Assembly: GCA_028285105.1 (NCBI GenBank)
Contig: JANQQE010000024.1
Span: 186,001 to 250,000 of the forward strand
Origin: Alphaproteobacteria bacterium
GTDB taxonomy: Bacteria; Planctomycetota; Phycisphaerae; UBA1845
Direction of reading: 5' to 3'
Length of the DNA: 64,000 bases
This document shows positions 9,285 through 48,344 of this stretch, piece after piece (the first letter of the stretch is position 1; each line of letters begins with the position of its first letter). The translations under genes and the position numbers were made by a program. Below the pieces are notes generated by a model. That model saw only the letters and a list, made by a program, of their open reading frames with translations, made no database searches and was not told the origin of the DNA.

Positions 9285-10328
9285 TCAATGACCGTGTAAC
9301 GGAAGCGATTGAATCTTCAGAGGGTTGGTTTGAACCGCCATGAATCCACCCAGCGGAAGCGTCGCGTTGTTGGATACATGACCTGCCGGAAAGTTCGTTA
9401 CGACGGGAATGTCAAGATCGCTGAAGTAATCTTCAAATACCTGCCGTAGCGTCAGGTTGTTTTCAGGGTCTTTCGTTTCACATTTGGTAAACTTTCCGAC
9501 CAGAATGCCAGCCGCTTCATCGAGCTTTCCTGCAAGCTTCAGTTGGCACAGATATCGATCGATTCGATACGGCGCTTCTTTGATGTCCTCGATGAAGAGA
9601 ATCTTGTCGCGGCAGTCGATTTCGTACGGCGTGCCCATCAACGCGATGATCAATGACAAGTTGCCGCCGACCAGTTGGCCCGTCGCCGTGCCGGGCGAGA
9701 GTATTTGAAGTTTGCCATCTGCCTTTGGCGGTTCGTATTCGGTCGAACTCGACAGCGCATCGCCCTCCAGACACGACCAAAAATACTTTGCCGCGTACTT
9801 CGGCAAATTGCTCTTGCTTCCCAAGCCCCACATCGGGTTGGGAGTGTGAAACGTGACCAGTCTCGCCTCCTGATTGATCGCGAGGTGAAGGGCTGTGATG
9901 TCGCTGAACCCGATGAGTACCTTTGGGTTTGCTCGTATTTTTTCAAAATCGAGCAGGTCGAGGATGCGCGTTGCTCCGTAGCTTCCTGTTCCCGGAAATA
10001 TCGCATCGACGTCGGGGTCTTCAAACGCCCTCATCAGTTCAGCCGCCCGCTCTTCGTCGCGGCCTGCAAGGTACCCGCGCTGCCGGTAAAGATTTTTGGG
10101 CACTTGCACGTTGTATCCCCGCTCTTCAAGTCTTCTTCGCGCCCGCGACATGCGTTCTTCGTCAAGAACGCCAGCAGGCGCGACGAACGCAATGGTGTCG
10201 CCCGGACTCAAAGATGGCGGAACGATGTACGCTCGATCGTCGGGAGTGGACATCGAACAACCCAAACCAAAACCTAACGCAAAAACCGTTGCGAATCGAC
10301 GAAGACCAGCGATGTGAGATTGATTCAT
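9285..10328 (-). CDS. LD-carboxypeptidase, peptidase family S66 (lipoprotein)
   Basis: About 347 residues from the ATG at 10328. The start was chosen because the following residues form a lipoprotein signal (FALGFGLGC, lipobox Cys near residue 24); the upstream extension is basic and unlikely. S66 family signatures are present: IAFVAPAG, the nucleophile Ser in GFSDIT, the Glu in LFIEDIKEAPYRIDR, and a late His in FPAGHVSNNATLPLG. Known for the family: cleaves L,D-peptide bonds of muropeptides, or detoxifies microcin C-like peptides. A lipid-anchored envelope location suggests wall recycling (inference). It follows the GH20 gene by 87 bp on the same strand. Confidence 0.9.
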   Translation of the reverse strand: MNQSHIAGLRRFATVFALGFGLGCSMSTPDDRAYIVPPSLSPGDTIAFVAPAGVLDEERMSRARRRLEERGYNVQVPKNLYRQRGYLAGRDEERAAELMRAFEDPDVDAIFPGTGSYGATRILDLLDFEKIRANPKVLIGFSDITALHLAINQEARLVTFHTPNPMWGLGSKSNLPKYAAKYFWSCLEGDALSSSTEYEPPKADGKLQILSPGTATGQLVGGNLSLIIALMGTPYEIDCRDKILFIEDIKEAPYRIDRYLCQLKLAGKLDEAAGILVGKFTKCETKDPENNLTLRQVFEDYFSDLDIPVVTNFPAGHVSNNATLPLGGFMAVQTNPLKIQSLPLHGH

Positions 10329-10415
10329 TGTCAGAGGCTTCAACTGAAAGGGTTCAGGTGTCCTGCGCGGCGTTCTACAAGAATTTCTAAATCTCCGCCA
10401 CAACTCGTTTAACCT

Positions 10416-13319: not shown

Positions 13320-13326
13320 ATTGCAC

Positions 13327-15489
13327 CTAACTTCCGAATCGCGTTTGCAGCATCGCCCAATCCGCAAGATCCGAATCGCCGTCATCGTCAACATCGAACG
13401 CCTCGCACGAAACCGGAATCGGTCCGCCATCGGGGCCCGGAAGGCATCCGGCTGCAACTTCGTAGTCGTCAAGATCGACATCGCCGTCACCGTCCGAATC
13501 GCCCAGAGCGTATCCTTCGAGCACCAGTTTCACGCCGTCGGCAGAGGTGTATTCGCCGGCCAAACTTCCCTCGGTCGAAACCGTCACCCGGACGTCGTTG
13601 CCGCTTTCGTCAAATATCCATCGCCCAATCGGAACCCACTGTCCTCCGCTTGAGCGCTGATCGACGTACACGTCCGTCGAGCCGTTAAAGTGATGGACCG
13701 TATACTTCGCTGCGGCATTCCGATTGCCCGATGCCGTATACCAGACGTACACGTCGTAGCGTCCGGCTTTTGGAATATCAGTCGAATAGTCAGCCGCATG
13801 AATCGCAGGCCCTTCGGCGACGCGCGATCCGAATCGAAGGTAATCGGCTTGGGCGGAAGAGATCCACGACCCAGATTCCTGATATGACGGTGAGCCATCG
13901 GCATCATCGATGACCAGTTGGAGCATTCGATCATCGACAAACGGATTTGCTGCCGGCGCTTCCCAAGGCTGGCCAGATTGCGGAAGGGTGTTGAGTTCAT
14001 CCTGGATTGCCACCTGCGCCGAGTATTGGTGATACACCCATAAACACCCGTGACTGACATTTTGACCTATGGCGTAGTTCATTTGGTCGGCCACGAGTCC
14101 CGCGCTGTTGTCTTCTTGTGCACGGTAACCCACCGCAAGTTTATCTACATGCGCCGGTGCCTGGGATTTCTGAATGTTGAACTCGTTTTGGAACGCAGAC
14201 AAGGTCGTCATGTACATCTGCGGCATGACCAGGTCCATGTAGCCGCCTTCGACCCAGTCCGACCATCGCTGCATGTGTTGCGTGATGCCATAAGATCCGG
14301 TTGGCGCAGACGAAACGACGATGCGCGGGTTCGCGGCTTTGATCGCATCGTAGCAGCGTTCAACCGCATCGTTGACCAACTCTTCGCGGAACGCGACCCA
14401 TGTGGCGTTGTTGATGTTGGTCGGCGGACTGGTTCCGTACTGCGCCTGATACAACGCGCTGGTGACGGCTTCATAACCGTACTCGCGCCCCTGTCCCAAA
14501 TCCCTTCGGCCCCAACGGTATCGATCAATCTGAATGTCGTCGAACGAATAGTTCTCCGCCAGTTCGCGAACCATGTCTTCGAGCAGCTGCATGGCATCGG
14601 GATGGCCGGGACTCAGAAACACAAACCCGCCATTTTCACCGGTGACTGCGCTGCCGTTGTCGTCGCGGGCGAGCCAATCCGGATGGGCTACGGCAATCGG
14701 GTGCGATGCCGGGCCGACGGCCATGCCGTACTCGAACCACGCGCCGACTTTTAAACCTTCCTCGTGAAAGATGTCGGTCAGTAGCGCCATGTAATCGGTA
14801 CTGCCGCCTGCCCATGATCCGCCCGCATTGAAGTACACCTTCGACGGCCAATAGACGGATGCACCGGAATATGCCGCGATGTATACGGTGTTGATGCCGC
14901 CGCTTCGCATGTTCTGAGCGATGCTGCGCAATTCCGATTCGGATCGACCGAGGTAGTAATAGTGCGTCAGCCAGCAAGCGCGTAACTCGTCAACAACCGG
15001 AACACCGAATGTTGGTTGAAAGCGAACGGCGTCGGCTACGATGGTCTTGCCCGGTTGTGCTGCGCTGGAAAGCGAAACTGAACCAACCGTTCCCGCATCA
15101 AAATCGAACCAACCCAATGGGACCCATTGTGATCCATTGATCTGCTGATTGATGAAAACGTCGGTGATTCCACCAGAATGGTGAACGCTGTATTGGGCGT
15201 TGTCCGGGCGACTCAAACCGGTCGATCGATACCAGACATCGACCTGATACTCGCCGGATTCGAGAAAATCGGGTCGCCATTCAACTTCGCCTTCCGCCTG
15301 ACTTGTTGAACGGTAGCGATAGTCAGCGCCGTATTGGCCGGACACGTTCGCCGTGGACCAGGTTTCCGATAGTACGCTAAACTGCGGGTCGGAGTTGTCG
15401 ACGATGATGGTCTGTGCGTTGACGGAATTCCACGTTCCGCAAGTAGATGCGAGTCCTACGAATGCGGCGATCGCTGTGATTCGGTTCAT
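13327..15489 (-). CDS. Secreted GHL10-type glycoside hydrolase with golvesin-like and dockerin-like domains
   Basis: About 720 residues. The ATG at 15489 begins a signal peptide (MNRITAIAAFVGLASTCG... NAQ). Residues ~40-150 resemble the golvesin/Xly C-terminal fold (YQVDVWYRS, YSVHHSGG, WVPLGWFDFD). Residues ~165-490 are a TIM barrel of the GHL10/DUF187 group (ACWLTHYYYLGRSE, VGAWFEYGMAVG, DDIQIDRYRWG, MDLVMPQMY). A second golvesin-like copy follows at ~530-650 (YDVYVWYTASG, WVPIGRWIFD). The end holds two calcium-loop motifs (DSDGDGDVDLDDYE; DVDDDGDSDLADW), a dockerin type I-like module. No cohesin is visible in the window. The substrate is unknown; the context suggests a glycan. Confidence 0.88.
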   Translation of the reverse strand: MNRITAIAAFVGLASTCGTWNSVNAQTIIVDNSDPQFSVLSETWSTANVSGQYGADYRYRSTSQAEGEVEWRPDFLESGEYQVDVWYRSTGLSRPDNAQYSVHHSGGITDVFINQQINGSQWVPLGWFDFDAGTVGSVSLSSAAQPGKTIVADAVRFQPTFGVPVVDELRACWLTHYYYLGRSESELRSIAQNMRSGGINTVYIAAYSGASVYWPSKVYFNAGGSWAGGSTDYMALLTDIFHEEGLKVGAWFEYGMAVGPASHPIAVAHPDWLARDDNGSAVTGENGGFVFLSPGHPDAMQLLEDMVRELAENYSFDDIQIDRYRWGRRDLGQGREYGYEAVTSALYQAQYGTSPPTNINNATWVAFREELVNDAVERCYDAIKAANPRIVVSSAPTGSYGITQHMQRWSDWVEGGYMDLVMPQMYMTTLSAFQNEFNIQKSQAPAHVDKLAVGYRAQEDNSAGLVADQMNYAIGQNVSHGCLWVYHQYSAQVAIQDELNTLPQSGQPWEAPAANPFVDDRMLQLVIDDADGSPSYQESGSWISSAQADYLRFGSRVAEGPAIHAADYSTDIPKAGRYDVYVWYTASGNRNAAAKYTVHHFNGSTDVYVDQRSSGGQWVPIGRWIFDESGNDVRVTVSTEGSLAGEYTSADGVKLVLEGYALGDSDGDGDVDLDDYEVAAGCLPGPDGGPIPVSCEAFDVDDDGDSDLADWAMLQTRFGS

Positions 15490-15565
15490 GTCTTGAAAGT
15501 CCCTGTTGACAATCTTCACCGCCAAGGATTTGGCAGCAAGATTGATCGTTTCAATCGCCCGGAGA

Positions 15566-15606
15566 TAGTTATATAATAATTTAATGATCACCGCGGACGA
15601 TTTCAA
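15566..15606 (-). promoter_or_regulatory. Promoter and AT-rich element upstream of GHL10 gene
   Basis: On the minus strand TTGAAA (15606-15601) and TAAATT (15583-15578) are spaced 17 bp, giving a leader of about 80 nt. The block 15566-15581 matches 13 of 16 bases of a block in front of the PEP-CTERM gene (19542-19557), sharing the core TTATATAATA. It may be a common operator or simply similar -10 regions. Confidence 0.4.
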
Positions 15607-15679
15607 CTGGTTATCCAAGAACAGCAAAATCGCCGTTATTTCTTCGATCCTGGTATCGGGGATATGCGAAGCGGTCCAT

Positions 15680-16885
15680 CTAGTCGCCGGCAATTGATGG
15701 CGGTTCAAAAACTTGGGCCATTTCCAACAACAGGCTCTGACAAAGCATCAGCGCTCGCGGAATATGAAAGGGCCCTTTCCACATGCTGCCCTTCAGTGTT
15801 GACGACGGCGTTCCGTCGCGGTGGAGATATCCGAACCATTCGCCGAACTCCGGATCTGGAAAGTGTGCAAACGTCCAATCGTGAATTCGATCGAACCACT
15901 TAAGAAAGTCATTCCTGCCCGTCATGCGGTAGGCGAGCAGTGTCGCGTACAATCCTTCACAGTGCGGCCACCAGAGCTTCATGTCGTGCTCGATGTATGG
16001 CGAAGGTTTCCCCTCGATGTCGATGAAATAAAGCAACCCGCCAAAGTCCGGATCCCATCCGCGGTTCAGCGCGTCGAGAAGCGATTGCGCCATGGCATCG
16101 ATCAACTCCTGATCGTTGCGCCGGCGGGCGATCTCCATGACGAACCACGCCGTTTCGATGGCGTGCCCGGGGTTCATGACCCGACCTTCGGGCGTGTCGA
16201 GTCGGCTGCCGTCTGGGCTGACCGTTTCGAACACGATCGCGCGTTCGGCATCGATAAAGTCGCGTCGCAACTCGTCGATCAGGGCGGTGATGGTGTTTTC
16301 AAAACTCGGGTCCTTAGTCAATGCGAACATCGCGTCGGCGACCGAAATGTGGCACATCAGCGGCGAGAGCGCTTTCATCGGTCGGGTACCTGGATCGATC
16401 TTGGGCGGAAATCTCCCCGGAGTTTCGAGCGCTTCGCAACAAAATCCATAGGTATCGATTGCCCCCTGCGCCATTTCAGAATCGCCGGTGATCTGGGCCA
16501 ACTTCGAAAAGGCCAGGATCGCAAAGACTTCGCTGTAGACGTATCGGCGCATCTGAAGCGGGCGTCCGCTCCGATCGACGCTGAAATACAGCTTTCCGGC
16601 GTTGTCGAAACAATGATCGCACAGAAACTGAATTCCGCTCCGAGCAAGGCGAAGCCATTCTTCGCGGGGTTCAACCTGTTCGTAAAGCGCTGCATAAGTC
16701 CAGGTACTTCTGCCGGCGAACCAGACCGATTTGTCCGTCGAATAGACGCTTCCGTCGCGGGCGAGACAAGTGAAGAATCCGCCGTGTTCCCGATCGACGC
16801 CGTGGCGCTGCCAGAATGGCATGACGTCGTCAAGCAAAGCACGCCGGTAGAATTCCGTAAGCGTGTTGATACGATTGAGGTCCAT
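15680..16885 (-). CDS. N-acylglucosamine 2-epimerase (AGE) family protein
   Basis: 401 residues, the full AGE length. AAAGGAG lies 7 nt before the ATG. The (alpha/alpha)6-barrel family signatures are visible: HGGFFTCLARDG near residue 34, WFAGRSTWTYAALYE near 55, NPGHAIETAWFVME near 238 (catalytic His region), and MKLWWPHCEGLYATLLAYR near 308. Known for the family: interconverts GlcNAc and ManNAc, or mannose/cellobiose-type sugars. The exact sugar cannot be read from sequence. There is no signal peptide, so it is cytoplasmic. It is the first gene of the minus-strand glycan arm and is divergent from the DUF4434 gene. Confidence 0.92.
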   Translation of the reverse strand: MDLNRINTLTEFYRRALLDDVMPFWQRHGVDREHGGFFTCLARDGSVYSTDKSVWFAGRSTWTYAALYEQVEPREEWLRLARSGIQFLCDHCFDNAGKLYFSVDRSGRPLQMRRYVYSEVFAILAFSKLAQITGDSEMAQGAIDTYGFCCEALETPGRFPPKIDPGTRPMKALSPLMCHISVADAMFALTKDPSFENTITALIDELRRDFIDAERAIVFETVSPDGSRLDTPEGRVMNPGHAIETAWFVMEIARRRNDQELIDAMAQSLLDALNRGWDPDFGGLLYFIDIEGKPSPYIEHDMKLWWPHCEGLYATLLAYRMTGRNDFLKWFDRIHDWTFAHFPDPEFGEWFGYLHRDGTPSSTLKGSMWKGPFHIPRALMLCQSLLLEMAQVFEPPSIAGD

Positions 16886-24777: not shown

Positions 24778-25884
24778 ATGACCCTTCCTTCAATAGACAA
24801 AGCCGATCCCACACCAAGGTATCTGCAAGCCGAGCAGATTCTGTTGGCGGCGATTAGTTCCGGGACCCTTCGTCCGGGCAGCAAGATACCGGCGACGCCT
24901 GAGATTGCGGCGTTGATCAAGGTCAGCTTGATTACTGCGCACAAAGCCTTGGAGCGTCTTGTCGAAGCCGGATTGCTACGCCGCGAGGTCGGTCGGGGTA
25001 CGTTTGTCTGCGACGATGTGGATGACGCTTTGGCCGCCCGCGCTCGATTATCGATCGGCTTGATGCTCGACGATGCGGTGAATGTCAACGACTACTACCA
25101 TGCATCGATCATCGATGGACTACGCCGGGCCTCGCGATGTGACGATCAGCGCGCCGAATTTTTTTTCAAGGACTGCGCATCTCTTCGCCGAAGCGAGTTC
25201 AAACGAACTTCGGGGATCATCTGCATTCACCCGGCTATTGAGCTTCACGACGAAATCGCACGCATGGCAGAGAGGGTTCCGCTGGTGGTCCTGGGTGGAA
25301 CGCTACCCGAGCGCGAAGTCGCATTTGTGGACTGCGACAACTTCGCCGGTTCGCAACTGGCAATCCGTCATCTGCACGGGTTGGGGCATCGTCGGATTGC
25401 GGTGTTGTCGGGACCGATGAACCTCAGCAATGCCCGCGACCGTACCGAAGGCGCCCTAAAGGAAATGGCCGTTTGCGGGATTCCAATCGATGACGTGACC
25501 AGCATCGTGTTTGAATCGAAAGAAAGCATTGCGCTGGATGCAAAAACGCAAACCCGATTCGTTCAACGTCTCAAGAGCAGCGATCGCCCGACGGCCATTC
25601 TTGCGGGAGGGTTTTATTTGGCACTCAGCGCTTTGCAGACGGTGCGTCAGATGAACCTGTCCGTTCCGGAAGATATTTCAATTGTCGGATTCGATGACCC
25701 GCCATCGGCACCGTTACTGGATCCACCGCTGACCACCGTTCGGCAACCGCTACAGAAGATGGCCGAAGAAGCCTACTTCGCGATTCGACGGGCTGTCGAT
25801 CGTGAAGATATGGAAGCCCCATCACTGGAACTTCCGACCAAATTAATCACCCGCGGTTCGACGGCGCCAATCAAGAATTCGTAA
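24778..25884 (+). CDS. GntR-type transcriptional regulator with LacI-like sugar-binding domain
   Basis: 368 residues. Residues ~12-80 are a GntR winged helix (YLQAEQILLAAISSGTLRPGSKIPATPEIAALI... AHKALERLVEAGLLRREVGRGTFV). Residues ~90-360 are a periplasmic-binding-protein fold as in LacI/AraR regulators (GLGHRRIAVLSGP; LSVPEDISIVGFDDPPSAPLLDPPLTTVRQP). Known for this architecture: sugar-responsive repressors such as AraR. It heads the operon with the GH38, transporter and CBM9-like genes, so it probably controls them in response to a glycan-derived sugar (inference). The 20-bp tandem repeats at its start are the obvious candidate operator. Confidence 0.92.
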   Translation: MTLPSIDKADPTPRYLQAEQILLAAISSGTLRPGSKIPATPEIAALIKVSLITAHKALERLVEAGLLRREVGRGTFVCDDVDDALAARARLSIGLMLDDAVNVNDYYHASIIDGLRRASRCDDQRAEFFFKDCASLRRSEFKRTSGIICIHPAIELHDEIARMAERVPLVVLGGTLPEREVAFVDCDNFAGSQLAIRHLHGLGHRRIAVLSGPMNLSNARDRTEGALKEMAVCGIPIDDVTSIVFESKESIALDAKTQTRFVQRLKSSDRPTAILAGGFYLALSALQTVRQMNLSVPEDISIVGFDDPPSAPLLDPPLTTVRQPLQKMAEEAYFAIRRAVDREDMEAPSLELPTKLITRGSTAPIKNS

Positions 25885-25940: not shown

Positions 25941-28877
25941 ATGGTCAACCCAAGTGCGCAGAATACGGGAGGCGGTTCACCAACTTCCGAAACCGGCAGG
26001 ATTCAGTGTCACGTCGTGCCCAACACGCACTGGGATCGCGAGTGGAAATTTTCATTCGGACGACTGCAGTTCATGCTCGTCGAGATGATGGACTTGCTTG
26101 TCGATGTGCTGGCGAAAGCGCCTGAACTCAAGACGATTCATCTCGATTCGCAAACAGCCCCCCTGCTCGATTACCTGGATATGCGTCCACAACGCGAAGA
26201 AGAACTGCGCGCGTTCGTAGCAGATGGACGACTCGACGTTGGCCCATGGTACACCCTTCCAGACGAGTTCTGCGTGGGCGGGGAATCTCTCATTCGCAAT
26301 CTCTTGCTGGGGCATCGAATCGCTCGCCGGTTTGGCCGCGTGTGCAAGAGCGGTTATTCGCCGTTTTCCTGGGGGCAAATTTCGCAGATGCCTCAAATCT
26401 ACAATGGGTTTGGAATCGACGTCATGATGTTTTATCGCGGCGTCAACAATAAGGTCGCCCCTCGATCCGAATTCATCTGGTGCGGTCCCGACGGCACGTC
26501 GATCATCGCATCGCGATTGGCAAGGCGGCCTCGCTACAACGTCTGGTATGTGTTGCAGCGTCCGGCATACTGGGGCGCCAAGCTGGATGCACTCAACGAT
26601 TTTGAGTTGCCCTGGTCGTGTGGGCATGCCCCCTTCCGAATGATTGATCGCGATCATCAATCGCTCGAATACAAGCTGGCCCATCCGAAATATAACTACT
26701 ATCAGGACGTTATCGACGAGGCGTGTAAACAGGCCATTGAGGAGCAGGATGACGATTGGAGTACACCGCATCGGTTGTGGGCGAACGGTCACGATGCGTC
26801 GTCGCCCGACATGCGAGAGTCACAACTGATCGAAGATGCGAGCAAATCGCTATCGGATCATGCCGACGTATTCTTCAGCAGCATCGAGCAATTCCAGGAC
26901 GCAATACGTTCGCAACTGCAAGAAGGTTGGCCGGTGGTCACCGGTGAAATGCGACATCCCTTCACGAAAGGAAGTGCCAGTTCGCTGCTGGGTTGGATCA
27001 TCTCGGCACGCAGCTACTTGAAGCAGGACAATTTCTTAACCGAACGGGCGCTGACCCATCAAGCCGAGCCCACGGCCATCTTCGCGCACCTGCTGGGGGC
27101 GAATTTTCCTCGAGCGTTTATCGACCATGCGTATCAATTGCTCCTTCAGAATCACGCGCACGACTCTATAGGCGGGTGCGGACGCGATGTCGTTCACGAC
27201 GATATGCAATACCGATTCCGCCGAATTCGTGAAATAAGCGACTGCGTACTCGAACAATCGCTCATGGAAATTTCCGGTTCGATCGACACCTCGGGTTGGT
27301 CGGAGAACGATCTGGCAATCGTTGTTATGAATCTGACGCCTCGCTCACGCGGCGATGTGATCGAATTGGCGCTGGATATTCCAACCAACTGGCCTGATTT
27401 TGAATTGCTCGACGCTTCCGGCAAACCCGTCCGAACGCAGCTGCTCTCGAAGACGCCAGATTTTCAGGAATCGGTCTACAACCCGCACGATGTATCGACT
27501 TACTTGACGTCGCACCGTTGTCATCTGCTGGCGTTTGTCGATGATATCCCGCCAATGGGCTACAAAGCCATAGGCGTCCGCCGATCGAATGTTTCTCCAA
27601 AACAAGAACCTCCAGACATCTCCAAATCGCCCAACACGTTGGAGAATGAGTGGATAAATGTGCAGATCAATTCGAATGGAACGCTGCGTATTCTCGATAA
27701 ATCGACCGGACGGGTCGCGGATGGGCTGGCATACTTTAAGGACTCGGGGGCGGCTGGCAATCCTTGGCAACACCAGGCTCCAAAACATGACCGCACGTTC
27801 ACAACACTCGACGCAACGCCAACCATGTCGACGCTGCGCAACGGCCCGCTGGAAGCCAGTATCGAAGTGCAATTCGAATGGGCATTGCCAGGTTCGCTAA
27901 CCGAAGACGGACAATCGAGATCTAAAAAGATGCATTCGTTTCAGTTGACTTCGGTTGTCACGCTGCGGCGCGGTCAGCCGTGGGTCGAGATCGAAACGAC
28001 GTTTGAAAACACGGTGAAGGACCATTATCTGCGCGTTTGCTTTCCGACCGGGGTGCAGACTGACCGGGTCCAAGTACAGAGTTCCTTTGATGTGGTGGAG
28101 CGCAGCATCGCATTGCCCCAAGCAGACCCAGGCGACGAACCGCACCAACCCGAGCAGCCCATGGATTCCTTTGTAGATGTGTCCGACGGGAATGCCGGGT
28201 TGGCGATACTTAATGAAGGCTTGAAGGCATATGAAGCGTGTGACGACGAAGAGCGCACCGTCAATCTGACGCTTCTTCGCGCACTTGCGATGCGGTTCTT
28301 TGTTCCGGAAAAACAAGATCATCCGGGCTTGGCTGACGGAAGCCAATGTCCTGGACCGCAGCGGTTTCGATATGCCATCCTGCCACACGAAGGCAACTGG
28401 GAACAGGGCAACGTTTGGCAAACTGCCGATCGATTTAATTCGCCGCTAATCGCCGGACAGATCGGAATCACCAATCATGGCCGCGAACCAAAAAGCAAAT
28501 CCTTCCTTGAGGTGCAACCGGATTCTTGTTGTTGGAGTGCCCTCAAACAGAGCGAAAGCGGCGATGGATTCGTTCTGCGATTGTTCAACCCAACCGCAGA
28601 ATCGCTCGATGCGTCCGTTCGCTTTAATGAAGGACACGCCCCCGCCGTGTCGAATGAATCGCCAACCGAGAGGACCGCGAACGAATTTCAACTTCCCAAA
28701 AGCCAGCGCGTGCCTTGGGACAGCGTGCGCGAAGTGACGCTCGAGGAGCTACCGATTCGCGATCTCTCGCAAGACAAAGACGGATGGGTTCGATTCGCTC
28801 TACCGTCGCGCAAGATTTTCACGATCGAGCTACGTGCTTCAAACCGCGATAACCGGCAAGGTGAATCGAACGCATGA
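25941..28877 (+). CDS. GH38 alpha-mannosidase-like protein with substituted nucleophile position
   Basis: 978 residues, no signal peptide. The N-terminal GH38 signature NTHWDREWKF gives the zinc ligands His30 and Asp32. The late zinc ligand region is NHAHDSIGG (His405/His407). The C-terminal ~500 residues are the GH38 beta-sandwich domains (VSTYLTSHRCHLLAFVDD; GQPWVEIETTFENTV). In GH38 the nucleophile, also a zinc ligand, is an Asp in a motif such as GYxPDSFGQ. Here the aligned segment is GYSPFSWGQISQMPQI (residues 138-153), with Phe142 in place of that Asp. So the fold is clear but the usual mechanism is doubtful. It follows the regulator by 56 bp and overlaps the transporter by ATGA. Confidence 0.85.
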   Translation: MVNPSAQNTGGGSPTSETGRIQCHVVPNTHWDREWKFSFGRLQFMLVEMMDLLVDVLAKAPELKTIHLDSQTAPLLDYLDMRPQREEELRAFVADGRLDVGPWYTLPDEFCVGGESLIRNLLLGHRIARRFGRVCKSGYSPFSWGQISQMPQIYNGFGIDVMMFYRGVNNKVAPRSEFIWCGPDGTSIIASRLARRPRYNVWYVLQRPAYWGAKLDALNDFELPWSCGHAPFRMIDRDHQSLEYKLAHPKYNYYQDVIDEACKQAIEEQDDDWSTPHRLWANGHDASSPDMRESQLIEDASKSLSDHADVFFSSIEQFQDAIRSQLQEGWPVVTGEMRHPFTKGSASSLLGWIISARSYLKQDNFLTERALTHQAEPTAIFAHLLGANFPRAFIDHAYQLLLQNHAHDSIGGCGRDVVHDDMQYRFRRIREISDCVLEQSLMEISGSIDTSGWSENDLAIVVMNLTPRSRGDVIELALDIPTNWPDFELLDASGKPVRTQLLSKTPDFQESVYNPHDVSTYLTSHRCHLLAFVDDIPPMGYKAIGVRRSNVSPKQEPPDISKSPNTLENEWINVQINSNGTLRILDKSTGRVADGLAYFKDSGAAGNPWQHQAPKHDRTFTTLDATPTMSTLRNGPLEASIEVQFEWALPGSLTEDGQSRSKKMHSFQLTSVVTLRRGQPWVEIETTFENTVKDHYLRVCFPTGVQTDRVQVQSSFDVVERSIALPQADPGDEPHQPEQPMDSFVDVSDGNAGLAILNEGLKAYEACDDEERTVNLTLLRALAMRFFVPEKQDHPGLADGSQCPGPQRFRYAILPHEGNWEQGNVWQTADRFNSPLIAGQIGITNHGREPKSKSFLEVQPDSCCWSALKQSESGDGFVLRLFNPTAESLDASVRFNEGHAPAVSNESPTERTANEFQLPKSQRVPWDSVREVTLEELPIRDLSQDKDGWVRFALPSRKIFTIELRASNRDNRQGESNA

Positions 28878-30799
28878 ACCTACACCTTGCAGACTGGTCG
28901 GTCGTGGTCGGGTTGTTGCTCGTGGTCGTGGTTATGGCGATTCGCACCAAAAAGCACACCCGATCGGTCGCTGATTTTCTAGCCGCCGGGCGCTCGGCGG
29001 GTCGGTACGTCATCACCGTTTCCGAAGGGGCGGCTGCCCTCGGCGCGATTACCGTGGTCGCCACCTACGAGAAATTCTACCAAGCCGGTTTTAGCGCCCA
29101 ATGGTGGGACATTCCCAATCTGTCGACCGGTTTCGTGATCGCCTTGACGGGTTGGGTGATCTACCGCTTTCGGCAAACCCGCGCCATGACAATGGCGCAG
29201 TTTTTTGAAATGCGTTACAGTCGAAATTTTCGGATATTCGCCGGGATTCTCGCCTTCGTCGCCGGCTTGGTGAACTTCGGAATTTTCCCGGCGGTCGGAG
29301 CGAGGTTTTTCATTTACTTCTGCGGATTGCCACAATCGTTCGATGTATTCGGTTACGGCATCTCAACGTTTGTCACAGTGATGGTGGCGCTCATCGGCAT
29401 TTCGCTGGTCTTTACGTTTGTTGGCGGGCAGATCGCCGTCATTGTGACCGACTTTATTCAGGGCATGTTCTGCCTTGCCGCGTTTCTGGTAATTTTCGTG
29501 GTTCTTGCCCGGCAGTTCAGTTGGACGCAGATTTCCGAAGCGCTTGCCATGGCACCTCCAGATGCGTCGCTCATCAACCCCACGCGGATGAGCAAGATCG
29601 ACGGGTTCGATACGTATTTCTTCTTGATCGCCATCTTCGGTGCGTTCTACATGACGATGGCCTGGCAAGGTACGTCGGGATACAACAGTTCGGCGCGCAC
29701 CCCGCATGAAGCCCGGATGGCCAAGGTGCTTGGCAAGTGGCGGGAGATCGTACAGGGCATGTTGATTCTGTTCATGCCCATCTGTGCCTACACGTTCCTT
29801 CATCATCCCGATTTTGCAGAACGAGCCGCTGCCGCACAGCAGGTCATTTCAGGTATCGATTCGGAGCAAATTCAAAAGCAAATGACCGTCCCGATCACGC
29901 TCAGCGCCATTCTGCCCAAGGGCGTGATGGGCGTCCTGTGCGCGGTCATGCTCGCCGCGTTCATCAGCACGCACGACACCTACCTGCATTCATGGGGAAG
30001 CATCTTTATTCAAGATGTTGTCATTCCGTTTCGCAAGAAACCCTTCACACCGGCTCAGCACTTGCGGATGTTACGCTATTCCACCTGCCTGGTCGCGGTA
30101 TTCATCTTCTTCTTCAGCCTGCTGTTCAAACAAACCGAATACATCTTGATGTTCTTCGCCATTACAGGCGCGATTTACTTGGGTGGCGCAGGATCGGTCA
30201 TCGTTGGCGGCTTGTACTGGAAACGCGGAACGACAAAGGCTGCATGGTGTTCCATGACAATCGGATCGCTGCTGGCCGTCGCTGGCATTTATGCGAGACA
30301 AAAATTTCCCGATTTTCCACTCGATGGACAGCGAGCATTTTTCTTAGCAATGGTTGCTGCGATCGTCGTATACATTGTGGTGTCACTACTTGACCCTCGT
30401 CCGGGGGTGGATCTTGACAAAATCCTGCGGCGCGGTCGATTCGCCGTCTCCTCCGATCATGACAAGCATTCGCCCGCAAAGGGGCTTAGGGCATTGGCGA
30501 TGACCAGCGAGTTCAGTCGGGCGGATAAGTTCGTATACATTTCGTTCATTTCCTGGATCGCAGGATGGCTCACGGTGTTCTTGATCGGTACGCTCTATTT
30601 CTGGAACCGCGAAGTTCCGAACGAAAGCTGGCTTTGGTTTTGGAAGTACTATCTTTACCTCGCTTTTGTCATGGGATCGATCACCGTCGTCTGGTTTGCC
30701 ATCGGCGGTTTGCGCGACCTTCGGGCCATGTTTCACACGCTCGCGACAGCCCAGCGCGACGACAGCGATGACGGTTCGGTAGATTCCTTGAGGGACTAA
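28874..30799 (+). CDS. Sodium:solute symporter family (SSS) transporter
   Basis: 641 residues with about 13 hydrophobic helices spread over the whole length. N-terminal SSS features: DWSVVVGLLLVVVVMAIRTKK, then SVADFLAAGRSAGRYVITVSEGAAALGAIT. Later helices include MTMAQFFEMRYSRNFRIFAGI and TDFIQGMFCLAAFLVIFVVLA. Known for the family: Na+-driven uptake of sugars, sialic acid, amino acids or other organic solutes across the inner membrane. The ATGA overlap with the GH38 gene and a 3-bp gap to the CBM9-like gene show it is in one operon, so import of the released sugar is likely (inference). Confidence 0.93.
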   Translation: MNLHLADWSVVVGLLLVVVVMAIRTKKHTRSVADFLAAGRSAGRYVITVSEGAAALGAITVVATYEKFYQAGFSAQWWDIPNLSTGFVIALTGWVIYRFRQTRAMTMAQFFEMRYSRNFRIFAGILAFVAGLVNFGIFPAVGARFFIYFCGLPQSFDVFGYGISTFVTVMVALIGISLVFTFVGGQIAVIVTDFIQGMFCLAAFLVIFVVLARQFSWTQISEALAMAPPDASLINPTRMSKIDGFDTYFFLIAIFGAFYMTMAWQGTSGYNSSARTPHEARMAKVLGKWREIVQGMLILFMPICAYTFLHHPDFAERAAAAQQVISGIDSEQIQKQMTVPITLSAILPKGVMGVLCAVMLAAFISTHDTYLHSWGSIFIQDVVIPFRKKPFTPAQHLRMLRYSTCLVAVFIFFFSLLFKQTEYILMFFAITGAIYLGGAGSVIVGGLYWKRGTTKAAWCSMTIGSLLAVAGIYARQKFPDFPLDGQRAFFLAMVAAIVVYIVVSLLDPRPGVDLDKILRRGRFAVSSDHDKHSPAKGLRALAMTSEFSRADKFVYISFISWIAGWLTVFLIGTLYFWNREVPNESWLWFWKYYLYLAFVMGSITVVWFAIGGLRDLRAMFHTLATAQRDDSDDGSVDSLRD

Positions 30800-30802
30800 G
30801 CG

Positions 30803-31558
30803 ATGAGACAGTTGCTGCTGTATGTTGTACCTGCCCTTTTCGCGTTTTCTTCGTTGGGATGCGCCAGCAGAATCGTCTGCTATTTACCTGCATCTCGACC
30901 GGTCGCAAGACTCGCCGAGTCACCCGTCGTCATTGACGGAGAGCTTGATGAACCCGTATGGCAACACGCCGTTCGCGCGGGATTGGGACTTTCAAAGGAA
31001 GACTTTGCCGCGAATCCCTTAGATATTGAGCGGGGATGGATCATGTTGGCCTACGACGACGACAATCTTTACCTCGCAGCCACCCTCGTCGATTCGGATG
31101 TTGTGGCAGAAGGTGACCGCGATCAGATGTCCCACTGGCAGAAGGGAGACGTCCTGGAATGGTTTCTCAAACCGGCTGACAAAACCTGGTACTGGGAGCT
31201 TTACGCCACGCCGCATAGTCGCAAATCCAGCTACTGGTTCCCCGGGCGCGGACGTCTGGGGCTTCCCAGTTGTTTGGATTACAAGTGCGGTTTGAAGGTC
31301 GCGTCTAAAGTCAACGGTACGTTGAATCAATGGGAAGATCGTGACGAGGGATGGACAACAGAGATGGCCATCCCCTGGAGCGACCTGTCGCAACGTGGCG
31401 AAAAAGTCGGCCCGGGATCGAAGTGGTTGTTCCTTGTCGGTCGGTACAACTACTCCCGATACCTCGAAGGCACTGAACTGTCGATGCACCCGAGACTGTC
31501 AAAGACAAACTTCCACCTGGTCAACGAGTATGCGACACTTCAATTCGACGCGGAATAG
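30803..31558 (+). CDS. Lipoprotein with CBM9-like carbohydrate-binding domain
   Basis: 251 residues. Lipoprotein signal peptide with lipobox FSSLGC (Cys about residue 20). From residue ~40 the sequence follows the CBM9-like/DOMON-type fold: VVIDGELDEPVWQHA, then IMLAYDDDNLYLAATLVDSDV, DVLEWFLKPAD and WTTEMAIPWSDL. Known: this domain binds sugars or accompanies glycoside hydrolases. Membrane anchoring and location 3 bp after the transporter suggest glycan capture at the cell envelope (inference). Confidence 0.85.
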   Translation: MRQLLLYVVPALFAFSSLGCASRIVCYLPASRPVARLAESPVVIDGELDEPVWQHAVRAGLGLSKEDFAANPLDIERGWIMLAYDDDNLYLAATLVDSDVVAEGDRDQMSHWQKGDVLEWFLKPADKTWYWELYATPHSRKSSYWFPGRGRLGLPSCLDYKCGLKVASKVNGTLNQWEDRDEGWTTEMAIPWSDLSQRGEKVGPGSKWLFLVGRYNYSRYLEGTELSMHPRLSKTNFHLVNEYATLQFDAE

Positions 31559-31588
31559 CGACGCACATCAATCGATTTGGAACGACAT

Positions 31589-33061
31589 GTGAGCAGGTTG
31601 CCAGTGCCAAATTCTGACACAGTTGATTCCACCCATGAATCCCGAATTGCGCCCACGCGGGCAGAGGGTCTCGACGCACTGCGCGGCATGGCCATTCTTG
31701 CGATGGCTTTGTCGGGGTTGGTCCCGCAGGGTGTGCTACCGAAATGGATGTACCACGCGCAGGTTCCGCCACCCGATCACGTTTTCAATCCGTCGATTCC
31801 CGGGCTGACGTGGGTCGATCTTGTATTCCCATTCTTTCTCTTCTCGATGGGCGTTTCGATTCCTTTGGCCCTGAGTCGAAGAATTGAAAAAGGTGCCGGT
31901 GCGCTCGAACTCGCTGTTCATGTCGTTAAACGCGGCGTTTTGTTGACCTTCTTCGGCGTTTACATTCAGCATATCAAACCCTATGAACTGAGCCCCACAC
32001 CGAACACGGCGACCTGGCTGACAGCGATGCTTGGGTTCGGATTGTTGTTTCCGATTTTCCTGCGACTTCCTTCGCGAATTTCCGGTTCGCGGCAGATGAC
32101 GATACGCGCCGTGGGTTGGATATTGATCGCCGTTTTTCTGGTATGGCTCAAGTATCCTGACCATGAGCATCCGGGATTTTGGATGGGCCGGCGCGACATC
32201 ATCATCGTGGTACTCGCCAACGTGTCGATATCTGGTTCGATTGTCTGGCTGCTGACGCGCCGCGCGCTTGAGTTTCGTTTGATGGTGATGCTGGGTCTGA
32301 TCGCAATACGTCTCGCCCACGATTCTGGCGGTTGGGTTCAAAGCGCCTGGAACTGGAGTCCCATACCATCGCTCTATACACTCTACTTTCACCAGTATCT
32401 TCTTGTCGTGCTACCGGGCACGATCGTTGGCGACCTGATGGTGCAGCGATTGCAGGCAACGTCCAAATCGCCCACGATGAGCGGTGCATGGTCGGGTTTG
32501 AAGGCACAAAGTGTTGCCCTGATCTGCATGGGTCTGACCTGCTTCGTGTGCATGGGCTTGCAGATTCGCTGGTTGCCGCACACAAGTTTTATTGCAACCG
32601 CTTTATCCGTATTGGCGGTTGTCGTCTGGGGACGAGGAGGTTCAGCATCGTCGTGCTTCGCCCGCACGGTTTTTGGTTGGGCGACAGCCTGGTTGATTGT
32701 CGGTTTGCTTTTTGAGCCATTCGAAGGGGGCATCAAGAAAGACCATCCGACCGTCAGCTACTACTTCGTCACCGTGGGACTGGGAATGTACATGCTGGTG
32801 GCACTGAACATATTCATCGAACAATGCGATTTGCGGACGATCTTTGCCTTGCCGATCGGCAACGGTCAAAACCCGCTCCTTGCATACGCCGCTATTTCCA
32901 ACCTGCTCGCTCCTGCACTGGCGCTGAGTGGATTGGGGGCAGTCATGGCCAGTGTTTTTGGATCGCCCTGGGCAGGGTTTTTCAGTGCCGTCCTCAAGAC
33001 GCTGCTGCTCGGCTTGGCGGTGATGCTGTTAACGCGAAAGCGTTTGATCTGGCGCGCATGA
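31589..33061 (+). CDS. DUF5009 / HgsNAT-like membrane acyltransferase-family protein
   Basis: About 490 residues with roughly 10-12 membrane helices. An in-frame TTG exists at 31577, but the GTG at 31589 has GGA 7 nt upstream and is preferred. Family features: RAEGLDALRGMAILAMALSG, then WVDLVFPFFLFSMGVSIPLAL near residue 75, and PLLAYAAISNLLAPALA near the C-terminus. DUF5009 proteins are relatives of lysosomal heparan-alpha-glucosaminide N-acetyltransferase. Known for that enzyme: transmembrane transfer of acetyl to terminal glucosamine. A similar role here is an inference from family and context. It overlaps the HAD gene by ATGA. Confidence 0.85.
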   Translation: MSRLPVPNSDTVDSTHESRIAPTRAEGLDALRGMAILAMALSGLVPQGVLPKWMYHAQVPPPDHVFNPSIPGLTWVDLVFPFFLFSMGVSIPLALSRRIEKGAGALELAVHVVKRGVLLTFFGVYIQHIKPYELSPTPNTATWLTAMLGFGLLFPIFLRLPSRISGSRQMTIRAVGWILIAVFLVWLKYPDHEHPGFWMGRRDIIIVVLANVSISGSIVWLLTRRALEFRLMVMLGLIAIRLAHDSGGWVQSAWNWSPIPSLYTLYFHQYLLVVLPGTIVGDLMVQRLQATSKSPTMSGAWSGLKAQSVALICMGLTCFVCMGLQIRWLPHTSFIATALSVLAVVVWGRGGSASSCFARTVFGWATAWLIVGLLFEPFEGGIKKDHPTVSYYFVTVGLGMYMLVALNIFIEQCDLRTIFALPIGNGQNPLLAYAAISNLLAPALALSGLGAVMASVFGSPWAGFFSAVLKTLLLGLAVMLLTRKRLIWRA

Positions 33062-34107
33062 ATGCGCTGCGATTTGCGACGTCCGAAGCCAATGAAGCTG
33101 AATTTAGGGGAGTCAAAACAGTGACACGTGTTGTCAAACTACCACAACTCGGCTCGGTTTCTGAAGACTCGGGGGTTGTGTTTCTTGAAGCATGCAGCGA
33201 CGACGCTCATCGCGTGGGTTCGAATGGTGTCGTGTCAATCGTTGCGACGGGCGATCGAAAAGTAGAATTCATCGCGTTTGAATCGCGCACACTCGCTTAC
33301 GTTCGTTCTTCGCTTGGGTACCCTGCGTATTACCCTGTGCATTCAGTCAGTCTGCAAAAACCGATTCGTGCAATCCTCATGGACCTGGATGGAACCACCG
33401 TTCGAAGCGAGCCATTCTGGGTGTGGATCATTCAGTCGTGCGTAGCGAGCCTGCTGGGCGATGCGAGTTTTGAACTGTCGGAAGAGGACGCGCCGTTTGT
33501 TGCCGGCCACAGCGTCTCAGAGCACTTGCAGTATGCGATCGACAAATACTGTCCGGACAAGACGCTCGAAGAAGCAAGACGATTCTACTTCGAGCATACC
33601 CGCAGGGAGTTGGAGGCAATCGTCCAAGGCGCGGGCCGGCAGGATGCGTTTGTGCCAGCCCCCGGAGTCAAAGAATTCTTGTTGCAACTGAAAGCCCGCA
33701 ACATCAAGATTGGTTTGGTGACGTCGGGCCTTTACGAGAAAGCCTGGCCGGCAATCGTTTCCGCATTTCGGTCGATGGATCTTGGCGCGCCAGCCGACTT
33801 TTATGACGCCATTATCACTGCCGGCTTCCCGCTTGGAAAAGGCAATGCCGGAACACTTGGCGAATTATCTCCAAAGCCTCATCCGTGGCTGTACGCGGAA
33901 ACCTGTTGCGTCGGCTTGAATATCGATTTCAAAGATCGGAATTCAGTACTGGCCATCGAAGACAGCGGCGCGGGGGTGTGTTCCGCGCGAATCGCAGGTT
34001 TTCCAACAGTGGGCATCGCTGGTGGAAACATCATTGCAAGCGGAACGAAAGATTTTTGTACGTTCTACAAGCAATCTTTCGCCGATTTGCTTGAACTTAT
34101 CGCCTGA
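33058..34107 (+). CDS. HAD-superfamily phosphatase/phosphomutase with N-terminal extension
   Basis: About 349 residues from the ATG at 33058, which overlaps the upstream stop (ATGA). The HAD core starts near residue 102: motif I LMDLDGTTVRSEP, motif II LVTSG near residue 222, motif III Lys in SPKPHPWLY near 274, motif IV AIEDSGAGVCSA near 300. The arrangement with a helical cap resembles beta-phosphoglucomutase/GPH proteins. The first ~100 residues (MNALRFATSEANEAE... SLGYPAYYPVHSV) are an added alpha/beta segment not typical of HAD enzymes and not recognised. It is the last gene of the regulator-GH38-transporter operon, so it may handle an imported sugar phosphate (inference). Confidence 0.85.
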   Translation: MNALRFATSEANEAEFRGVKTVTRVVKLPQLGSVSEDSGVVFLEACSDDAHRVGSNGVVSIVATGDRKVEFIAFESRTLAYVRSSLGYPAYYPVHSVSLQKPIRAILMDLDGTTVRSEPFWVWIIQSCVASLLGDASFELSEEDAPFVAGHSVSEHLQYAIDKYCPDKTLEEARRFYFEHTRRELEAIVQGAGRQDAFVPAPGVKEFLLQLKARNIKIGLVTSGLYEKAWPAIVSAFRSMDLGAPADFYDAIITAGFPLGKGNAGTLGELSPKPHPWLYAETCCVGLNIDFKDRNSVLAIEDSGAGVCSARIAGFPTVGIAGGNIIASGTKDFCTFYKQSFADLLELIA

Positions 34108-34161: not shown

Positions 34162-36360
34162 TCAGAGCGGTGCCCATACCTGGAACCATTGCGGGTGCCC
34201 GTAGCGCTTGTTGGATTTGAGGCCGCCAAATCCAAGCATCATCAACGGAATGGTCACCATACCCATCGCCCCGCAACCGATGCTACCTTCGGTACCGACT
34301 GTCCGAGATTCTGTATCATCGGTTTCTCCTTCGCTTACGTCATTGACCAATGCGCATCCCTCGTCATCGACATCCGAGTATGCTGACGTTGATTCGCATC
34401 GGTCGAATTCGTTGGCGACGCCGTCACGGTCTGAATCAAAGATATCTTCATCCTCACCAGCACCCGTCATCCCGTTACTTGGTTGATCGTTTCTGTTATC
34501 TGGCTGCGATGCAGGAGTCTCCGCACTACCGCCGCATACATCGCCAATGCCGTCATTGTCTCGATCGACTTGATCGGCGTTGGGCGTGTCCGGGCAGTTG
34601 TCGATGTCGCAGGTATTGGCTTCAAACCCAGGGTCACCGAAACCGTCACCATCGGAGTCCGTGCATGTGTCGCAGAGGTCTCCGATGCCATCGCCGTCAG
34701 AGTCCGACAGGTCGATTGAGGGCACTCTCGGGCAGTTGTCTACGACGTTCAGAATTCCGTCATCGTCCACGTCATCGCTGCAATCGTCGCCAACTCCGTC
34801 TTCGTCCAGATCGGCTTGGTCGGGATTGGCGCTGAATGGACAGTTGTCGAGTTCGCAAGTCGAAGCCGCAAAGCCTGGATCGCCAAACCCGTCACCATCG
34901 CTGTCGCTGCATGTGTCGCAGGCGTCCCCGAATCCGTCTTGATCCACATCGTCCTGAAACTCGTTAAAGTCGTCGGGGCAATTGTCTGCCGGGCAAGTGT
35001 TTTGCGCAAATTCAGGATCGCCGAATCCATCTTCGTCGCTGTCCGTACAAGTATCGCAAAGATCACCTATACCGTCGCCGTCTGCATCATTCAGGTTGTT
35101 GCCCGCCAACAGCGGACAGTTGTCAGTGAAGTTTAAGATGCCATCGCCATCCATGTCTTCATCGCAAGCATCACCGACACCGTTATTGTCCATGTCGGTT
35201 TGATCGGCGTTGGAGATGTCTGGGCAGTTGTCATCGACGTCGCAAACACCGTCACCGTCTGAGTCGGGGGCGAGTTTGAGCACAAGACTGCTTCCGGCGA
35301 TGTACACAACATCTCGGCGATCCACAACAACGTCGTCGGGGTTATTCAAGTAGATGTTGGTGCCAGGAACACGGAAGTCGATAAGCCGTGTCACTTCGCC
35401 ATTTGGCGTGACCTCGAACACAGTCCCCATGCTTCCACCGATGACCTGCGAGCCGGTCACGTACAGGGTACCGTCGTTGCTGAGAGCGATATCCATCGGT
35501 CGAATCAACCCATCGTCCGGACCGATGACTTCGGTGATTGCGCCATCGGGGGAGCGCATCAGCACGTTGTCGCTGATCAGCCCGGCGACGAAGACGTTTC
35601 CCTCGGAGTCGACGTCCAATCCGAAGGGCGCATCGAGTCCATCGTCTCGACTGATGACTTCCGTGCGATTGCCCGATGGATCGGTTCGCCGCACGTTGTC
35701 GAAGCTATCACTGGTCGTAAATACGCTACTATCGTTGTCAATGACGAGATTGGTGCAGCGATAGTTGCCTTTGACCTTGGAAATCTGACCGTTACGGGCG
35801 ATCTTAAATGCGTCAGTGCCAGAACTGGATTGACACACATATACGGCACCATCTGGACCGATGTCGATGGCTCGGGGTGACTTCAGGGCATAACCGTTGC
35901 CGTCGCCCGTTTCATCCAGAATCACGGAGGTGGCTCCCGATGGCGTGATCTTAAAGACGTTCCGACTGATGCTGGCCCCAACATAAACGTTGCCGTCATC
36001 GTCAACGGCGATTGCTCTTGGTCGGCCAAGCGGATTACCCTGACCGTCACCGGTCGCGTCCAAAAGTTCCGTGATCTCCCCGTCGACTGAAATTCCGATC
36101 ACCAAGCCGGTTTCTTCAAAGGGCTCTTGAACTCTTTCCCGGCCCGCCACAAAAACGTTGCCGGCATTGTCGACGGCAATCGCATCGGGCAGGAATGTCC
36201 GCCCCGGTACGAAATCGTATCCGTTGAGGATTCGCGACATCGCGTACTCAGCCCGGGCATTGGACGAAGCCAGAAACAAGCTGCCCGCCACGACCAGAAA
36301 CAGAAATGCCGTCCGCCGCGTCATATTCGTGGAACCGTGATTGTGTCGCATCGCGCTCAT
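34162..36360 (-). CDS. Exported NHL-like propeller protein with thrombospondin type 3 repeats and Cys-containing C-terminal anchor
   Basis: 732 residues. GAGGAG lies 7 nt before the ATG at 36360. A signal peptide ends near SSNARA. Residues ~40-370 are NHL/SMP-30 type propeller repeats (AIAVDNAGNVFVAG, AIAVDDDGNVYVGA, LDVDSEGNVFVAG, IALSNDGTLYVTG). Residues ~370-620 carry six thrombospondin type 3 units with DNCP and DSDGDG calcium-binding motifs. After an acidic linker comes a tail with GCGAMG, a hydrophobic helix (MVTIPLMMLGFGGL) and KSNKR. This tripartite tail resembles a sortase-like C-terminal sorting signal. Probably cell-surface and calcium-rigidified. It is convergent with the HAD gene. 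Confidence 0.88.
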   Translation of the reverse strand: MSAMRHNHGSTNMTRRTAFLFLVVAGSLFLASSNARAEYAMSRILNGYDFVPGRTFLPDAIAVDNAGNVFVAGRERVQEPFEETGLVIGISVDGEITELLDATGDGQGNPLGRPRAIAVDDDGNVYVGASISRNVFKITPSGATSVILDETGDGNGYALKSPRAIDIGPDGAVYVCQSSSGTDAFKIARNGQISKVKGNYRCTNLVIDNDSSVFTTSDSFDNVRRTDPSGNRTEVISRDDGLDAPFGLDVDSEGNVFVAGLISDNVLMRSPDGAITEVIGPDDGLIRPMDIALSNDGTLYVTGSQVIGGSMGTVFEVTPNGEVTRLIDFRVPGTNIYLNNPDDVVVDRRDVVYIAGSSLVLKLAPDSDGDGVCDVDDNCPDISNADQTDMDNNGVGDACDEDMDGDGILNFTDNCPLLAGNNLNDADGDGIGDLCDTCTDSDEDGFGDPEFAQNTCPADNCPDDFNEFQDDVDQDGFGDACDTCSDSDGDGFGDPGFAASTCELDNCPFSANPDQADLDEDGVGDDCSDDVDDDGILNVVDNCPRVPSIDLSDSDGDGIGDLCDTCTDSDGDGFGDPGFEANTCDIDNCPDTPNADQVDRDNDGIGDVCGGSAETPASQPDNRNDQPSNGMTGAGEDEDIFDSDRDGVANEFDRCESTSAYSDVDDEGCALVNDVSEGETDDTESRTVGTEGSIGCGAMGMVTIPLMMLGFGGLKSNKRYGHPQWFQVWAPL

Positions 36361-48234: not shown

Positions 48235-48344
48235 CCCGTTCGCTTGATGGCAATGCAATTTAAGCGAGGCGCGATGTGGCTGCGTCGCCAAGAGTTAGGA
48301 ATGTTACGGGTCACCACCCCAAACCGATGGCAAGGAGATACACG

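Follow-up and report, generated by a model that had tools for sequence, protein, structure and literature searches.

The 64,000-nucleotide stretch of DNA that was analysed (the window) contains, on its forward strand at 25941..28877, an open reading frame (ORF) encoding a 978-aa GH38-type protein. Pfam searches detected the Glyco_hydro_38N and 38C domains above cut-off (E 4.5e-30 and 8.9e-25, respectively) and Alpha-mann_mid slightly under cut-off, and the AlphaFold model (pLDDT 87, pTM 0.90), for which the best fold match is the GH38 enzyme of S. pyogenes (Z 42.1, rmsd 2.1, 836 residues), predicts a complete GH38 fold. With both domains and the overall fold present, the protein is a member of GH38 by sequence and by fold. 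Hydropathy analysis indicated no signal peptide. The protein is the sole GH38N protein detected in its own genome, and the 16S signature GCAGCCACCCGTAGGTGT, which we take to be the EUB338-II planctomycete probe, would place that genome in the Planctomycetota.

The gene is preceded by one encoding a regulator in which a GntR-type HTH is fused to a LacI-type sugar-binding domain (24778..25884, + strand; Pfam), homologues of which are present near several related loci. It is followed, also on the + strand, by genes encoding a sodium:solute symporter (SSF; 28874..30799; Pfam), the start of which overlaps the GH38 stop and a homologue of which is found in five of the compared loci, a CBM9-like protein (30803..31558; Pfam, slightly under cut-off), and a DUF5009/NagX-like membrane protein (31577..33061; Pfam and NCBIfam), which also adjoins the gene of the closest relative. 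NagX-like proteins are related to glucosamine acetyltransferases. These three genes lie between the GH38 gene and one encoding a HAD protein (33121..34107, + strand), all in one gene run. The HAD protein probably starts with the GTG at 33121, which follows AGGGGAG, and the longer ORF from 32824 is probably wrongly started. A divergent gene group (10416-16885, - strand) encodes GH20-like, GHL10-like and GlcNAc 2-epimerase proteins.

Bacterial GH38 alpha-mannosidases of known structure (SpGH38 of S. pyogenes, 2wyh; the E. faecalis enzyme, 3lvt/5kbp) share the full-length fold of the window protein (Z 37-42) at 27-29% identity. They also share its three zinc ligands (His/Asp/His), its acid/base Asp and an HD pair: the HWD motif (H30 and D32; 26028..26036) corresponds to SpGH38 H13/D15, the Asp of NGHD (D285; 26793..26795) to the acid/base D232, and the last two residues of HAHD (zinc ligand H407 and D408; 27159..27164) to H351/D352. 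What differs is the nucleophile, which is also the fourth zinc ligand. The alignment of GYSPFSWGQ with GYFPDTFGN of 3lvt/5kbp and 2wyh is gapless and sets Phe142 (codon TTT, 26364..26366) on SpGH38 D125. The H/N of the FG(H/N) motif is likewise replaced, by Gln, and R198 and N200 are gained relative to the bacterial enzymes. The only NCBIfam model that matched, MngB mannosylglycerate hydrolase (NF007331), did so at 448 bits against a curated cut-off of 1138, and MngB, unlike the window protein, retains the Asp (GYLPDSFG). An earlier note on this DNA had proposed, from the sequence by itself, that Phe142 stands in place of the nucleophile while the other zinc ligands remain, and the comparison with solved structures bears out both statements.

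The absence of the Asp is not readily attributed to an artefact. The motif is encoded by GGT-TAT-TCG-CCG-TTT-TCC-TGG-GGG-CAA and contains no other Asp or Glu in the alignment to solved GH38 enzymes, which rules out an alternative alignment that uses a neighbouring Asp. The earlier note had left a wrong base call open; sequencing error is ruled out because two base changes would be required to convert Asp to Phe at codon 142 and because this Phe recurs in independently sequenced relatives (57% and 45-49% identity). Decay of a lone gene is excluded as well, as the change is common to a clade. In the clade alignment, no clade-specific replacement carboxylate was found close to the active-site motifs: E177, although mostly clade-specific, varies within the clade and is distant from the motifs along the sequence, and E936 is located in the C-terminal domain. 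Judged by these alignments, the window protein has the zinc ligands (H30, D32 and H407) and the acid/base (D285) of the retaining GH38 alpha-mannosidases, lacks the nucleophile Asp of their GYxPDxFG motif, as do its relatives, and should not be filed among them by mechanism, although automatic annotation labels the clade proteins alpha-mannosidases.

Every close relative that we found lacks the Asp, which settles the question of whether a clade shares the substitution. Among the nearest relatives found, the sequence from a same-order genome is 57% identical, those from Clostridia MAGs 47-49% and those from elsewhere in the phylum 45-47%; all have Phe at residue 142, where more distant relatives have F, N, S or T. 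The DNA pattern for GY(S/T)P(F/N)xWGQ was matched in 5 of the 392 phylum genomes and in 2 of 291 genomes of the class of a clostridial carrier; the reversed control pattern gave no match in either search. The motif columns were left out of a maximum-likelihood tree, built by a quick method and with some long branches, in which one side of a single branch holds all 26 no-Asp rows (SH-aLRT 93; 1 change; none of 500 label shuffles as low). These rows are complete or partial sequences of planctomycete or clostridial origin. Five additional no-Asp sequences (L112, L114, L115, L116 and L119), left out of the tree, all have R198. Every clade member that covers these positions keeps the zinc ligands, D285 and D408, at a divergence that reaches ~28% identity. 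The best plasmid matches, GH38 proteins of Deinococcus plasmids, carry the Asp (GYLPDQFGH) and fall outside the clade. Two loci contain tandem no-Asp GH38 pairs, each with one F type and one N type (L060, 6758-12417; L061, 1770-7369), and a PfkB kinase gene adjoins the pair in L060. A no-Asp GH38 of ~633 aa (L064 in G082, 9317-11215; GFGISSFGH) has Ser at the nucleophile position and Lys at position 198, and its C-terminal domain is apparently missing.

Loss of the Asp is accompanied by a clade-specific gain in R198-Y-N200 (26532..26540). Of the 26 no-Asp rows, 25 have Arg and one (L064) has Lys at position 198, where all nine rows of the sister clade that has the Asp carry Gly; position 200 is Asn in 25 of the 26 rows and usually Cys in the sister clade. 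In nearly all no-Asp members, Gln also replaces H146 of the FGH motif. In SpGH38, Y192 hydrogen-bonds the nucleophile (PMC2815779), and positions 198 and 200 appear to flank the position of this Tyr, in an alignment that is gapped there. R198 immediately precedes helix 200-211 in the AlphaFold model. The conserved gain near the lost nucleophile is a basic residue and not an Asp or Glu, and the suggestion in the earlier note that another residue is used is not supported as far as acidic residues are concerned.

The HAD protein is a conserved partner of the clade. It is rare, being encoded in 9 of the 392 phylum genomes and in 6 of 100 relatives, and all five phylum genomes with the exact GH38 motif carry it (hypergeometric p 1.7e-9, kinship ignored). 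Among the 100 relatives, five of the six genomes with the HAD protein have a no-Asp GH38 (p 9.7e-6, kinship ignored), and overall 13 of 14 HAD genomes do. In 12 loci the HAD and GH38 genes lie next to each other on the same strand; they overlap by 4-8 bases in L071 and L070, and for most clade members they either adjoin or occur in the same genome. At 54-66% identity across loci, the HAD protein is far more conserved than the GH38 protein. The HAD protein resembles beta-phosphoglucomutase (beta-PGM-like): its DLDG motif, of the DxD nucleophile type, is invariant across loci, the model shows the class C1 HAD architecture plus a small N-terminal domain, and the two solved structures matched by its profile are both beta-phosphoglucomutases. 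Foldseek ranked beta-phosphoglucomutase first for the model and VIA placed it in a tie with mannitol-1-phosphate phosphatase and others; the modelled fold does not separate mutase from phosphatase. The phosphate-binding Arg of the beta-PGM cap appears to be Val in the HAD protein of the window. Four genomes (G010, G011, G038 and G076) have a no-Asp GH38 and no HAD protein; several of their loci have a PfkB kinase gene near, as does G064. In G085 (L104, G085:C180, 5320-9006), the neighbour of the HAD gene encodes a GH2 beta-mannosidase-like protein and no GH38 gene is close by, and the role of the HAD subfamily may therefore be wider than that of a GH38 partner.

The neighbouring genes provide hints about the substrate. 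Clostridial no-Asp members lie with GH88, GH94, two GH5, a CBM11 protein and ABC transport parts, and those in the phylum of the window lie with sulfatases and GH99-like, GH2 and GH43 proteins. The R. UCG13 xanthan locus (GH38-A/GH38-B) has parts like those of the clostridial loci (two GH5, CBM11, GH88, GH94 and ABC), a likeness of gene composition; no PL8 was recognised in the clostridial no-Asp loci. A review that covers this locus, reported by Ostrowski 2022, describes its two GH38 proteins as alpha-mannosidases (PMC10881899). We infer from these gene contents that alpha-mannosyl oligosaccharides could be the common denominator of the no-Asp loci. Two ~1000-aa proteins that form one cluster are encoded in the xanthan-like clostridial loci (L068, 1485-4499; L069, 1922-5095); the L069 protein had no Pfam match, and an as yet unrecognised lyase or esterase may be among the two.

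The sequence data point to changed chemistry in an active enzyme rather than to a dead protein, because the acid/base and zinc ligands are invariant, and among the options in the earlier note we favour a new activity or mechanism. As no carboxylate occupies the attack position, the nucleophile would have to be supplied by solvent or substrate. Phosphate is our first choice, since it would account together for the loss of the Asp, the basic residue acquired at that place and the genetic link to a sugar-phosphate enzyme. In this mechanism, an imported alpha-mannosyl (or related) oligosaccharide would bind with O2 and O3 on the zinc, as in GH38, and D285 would donate a proton to the leaving group. 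R198/N200, and possibly the zinc position vacated by the Asp, would hold an inorganic phosphate that attacks C1 from the face formerly used by the Asp. The product would be a sugar 1-phosphate with inverted configuration, to be isomerised or dephosphorylated by the beta-PGM-like HAD protein. The reaction is probably cytoplasmic and follows import, since the N-termini of clade members are short or hydrophilic with no apparent signal peptide.

The clade thereby bears similarity to the inverting phosphorylases of GH65, GH94 and GH130 with beta-PGM-type partners, which likewise have no catalytic carboxylate in the nucleophile/base role, an extra basic residue, a cytoplasmic location and a HAD neighbour. 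The folds of these phosphorylases are unrelated to GH38 and, to our knowledge, none of them contains zinc. Inverting phosphorylases need one catalytic residue, phosphate replacing the base, and their named markers are an absent signal peptide and special phosphate-binding residues (PMC8950772). The no-Asp proteins have no carboxylate at position 142, one acid catalyst (D285), short or hydrophilic N-termini, and a gained basic residue 198 and N200 that, placed by alignment only, may lie at the attack face. That a cytoplasmic, zinc-dependent and catalytically competent GH38 branch has given up its protein nucleophile in favour of phosphate, with the HAD protein processing the product, is the reading we tentatively prefer, at a likelihood well short of even. 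The narrower proposal, that the clade consists of zinc-dependent alpha-mannoside (or related) phosphorylases derived from a retaining GH38 hydrolase, with phosphate substituting for the Asp as nucleophile and perhaps as zinc ligand and with a HAD mutase devoted to the beta-sugar 1-phosphate, is more doubtful. Against phosphorolysis, Phe leaves less room for phosphate than Asp would, the HAD protein seems to have Val for the phosphate-binding cap Arg and ties with phosphatases in fold, four no-Asp genomes have no HAD protein, and the G085 HAD gene lies beside GH2.

The same active site could support hydrolysis by other routes. Substrate assistance, in which a zinc-bound, deprotonated 2-hydroxyl attacks C1 to give a 1,2-anhydro-mannose as in GH99, with D408 as base and D285 as acid, would make a protein nucleophile unnecessary in a retaining hydrolase. 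The zinc of GH38 binds the O2/O3 equivalents, which SpGH38 D352 and D15 contact (PMC2815779), the corresponding D408 and D32 are invariant in the clade, a 1,2-anhydromannose intermediate is described for GH99 endomannanases (PMC11403624), and such a reaction would tolerate an inert Phe on the beta face. We nevertheless consider it unlikely, as neither the basic residue gained at 198 nor the linked HAD protein is explained. Less likely again is an inverting hydrolase in which a zinc-bound water, in the coordination position of the lost Asp, attacks directly: without the Asp one zinc position is left open, the three other ligands and the acid/base are kept, and apo SpGH38 has a water on its zinc (PMC2815779), but no candidate general base was found and the HAD link is again left unexplained. 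Both routes account for the loss of the Asp only.

Two further explanations seem to us improbable, and equally so. The sugar in the -1 subsite might be anionic (a uronate or sulfated), with R198 reading its charge and the reaction perhaps an elimination or another non-hydrolytic step. The near invariance of R198, the sulfatases in several loci and GH88 in the clostridial ones would fit; the sulfatases, however, are not universal, and the clostridial loci look like those of a xanthan-type pathway, the matching step of which acts on a neutral alpha-mannose (PMC10881899). Alternatively, the protein could be a pseudoenzyme with a carbohydrate-binding, regulatory or scaffolding role, given that the textbook nucleophile is missing in all members and that GH38 mutants with Ala in its place still bind substrate (PMC2815779). 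Inactivity, which the earlier note had allowed for, is nonetheless difficult to reconcile with an acid/base and remaining zinc ligands that are invariant despite divergence to ~28% identity, or with the lack of a second GH38 in the genome of the window protein and in the clostridial locus regions examined. A 3-keto-glycoside lyase was also considered and set aside, as a Gfo/Idh/MocA partner was not seen to recur beside the clade.

The phosphorylase review PMC8950772 does not mention GH38, and we found no description of a nucleophile-less GH38 clade, an alpha-mannoside phosphorylase or a beta-phosphomannomutase in the open-access literature, which is weak evidence of absence; the clade is apparently undescribed there. 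A GH38 enzyme that acts by phosphorolysis would possibly be the first phosphorylase in the family and would add a zinc-dependent, nucleophile-free route to alpha-mannoside cleavage, of relevance to the degradation of sulfated and xanthan-like polysaccharides. With the nucleophile dropped, the rest of the site kept, an Arg gained and a sugar-phosphate enzyme linked, the clade may offer a concrete case of a glycosidase changing its mechanism.

Elsewhere in the window, the product of a gene at 34162-36360 (- strand) combines a beta-propeller part, matched by SMP-30/SBBP/NHL, with thrombospondin type 3 repeats, and an 827-aa protein (48276-50759) contains Kazal protease-inhibitor repeats, which are unexpected in a planctomycete.
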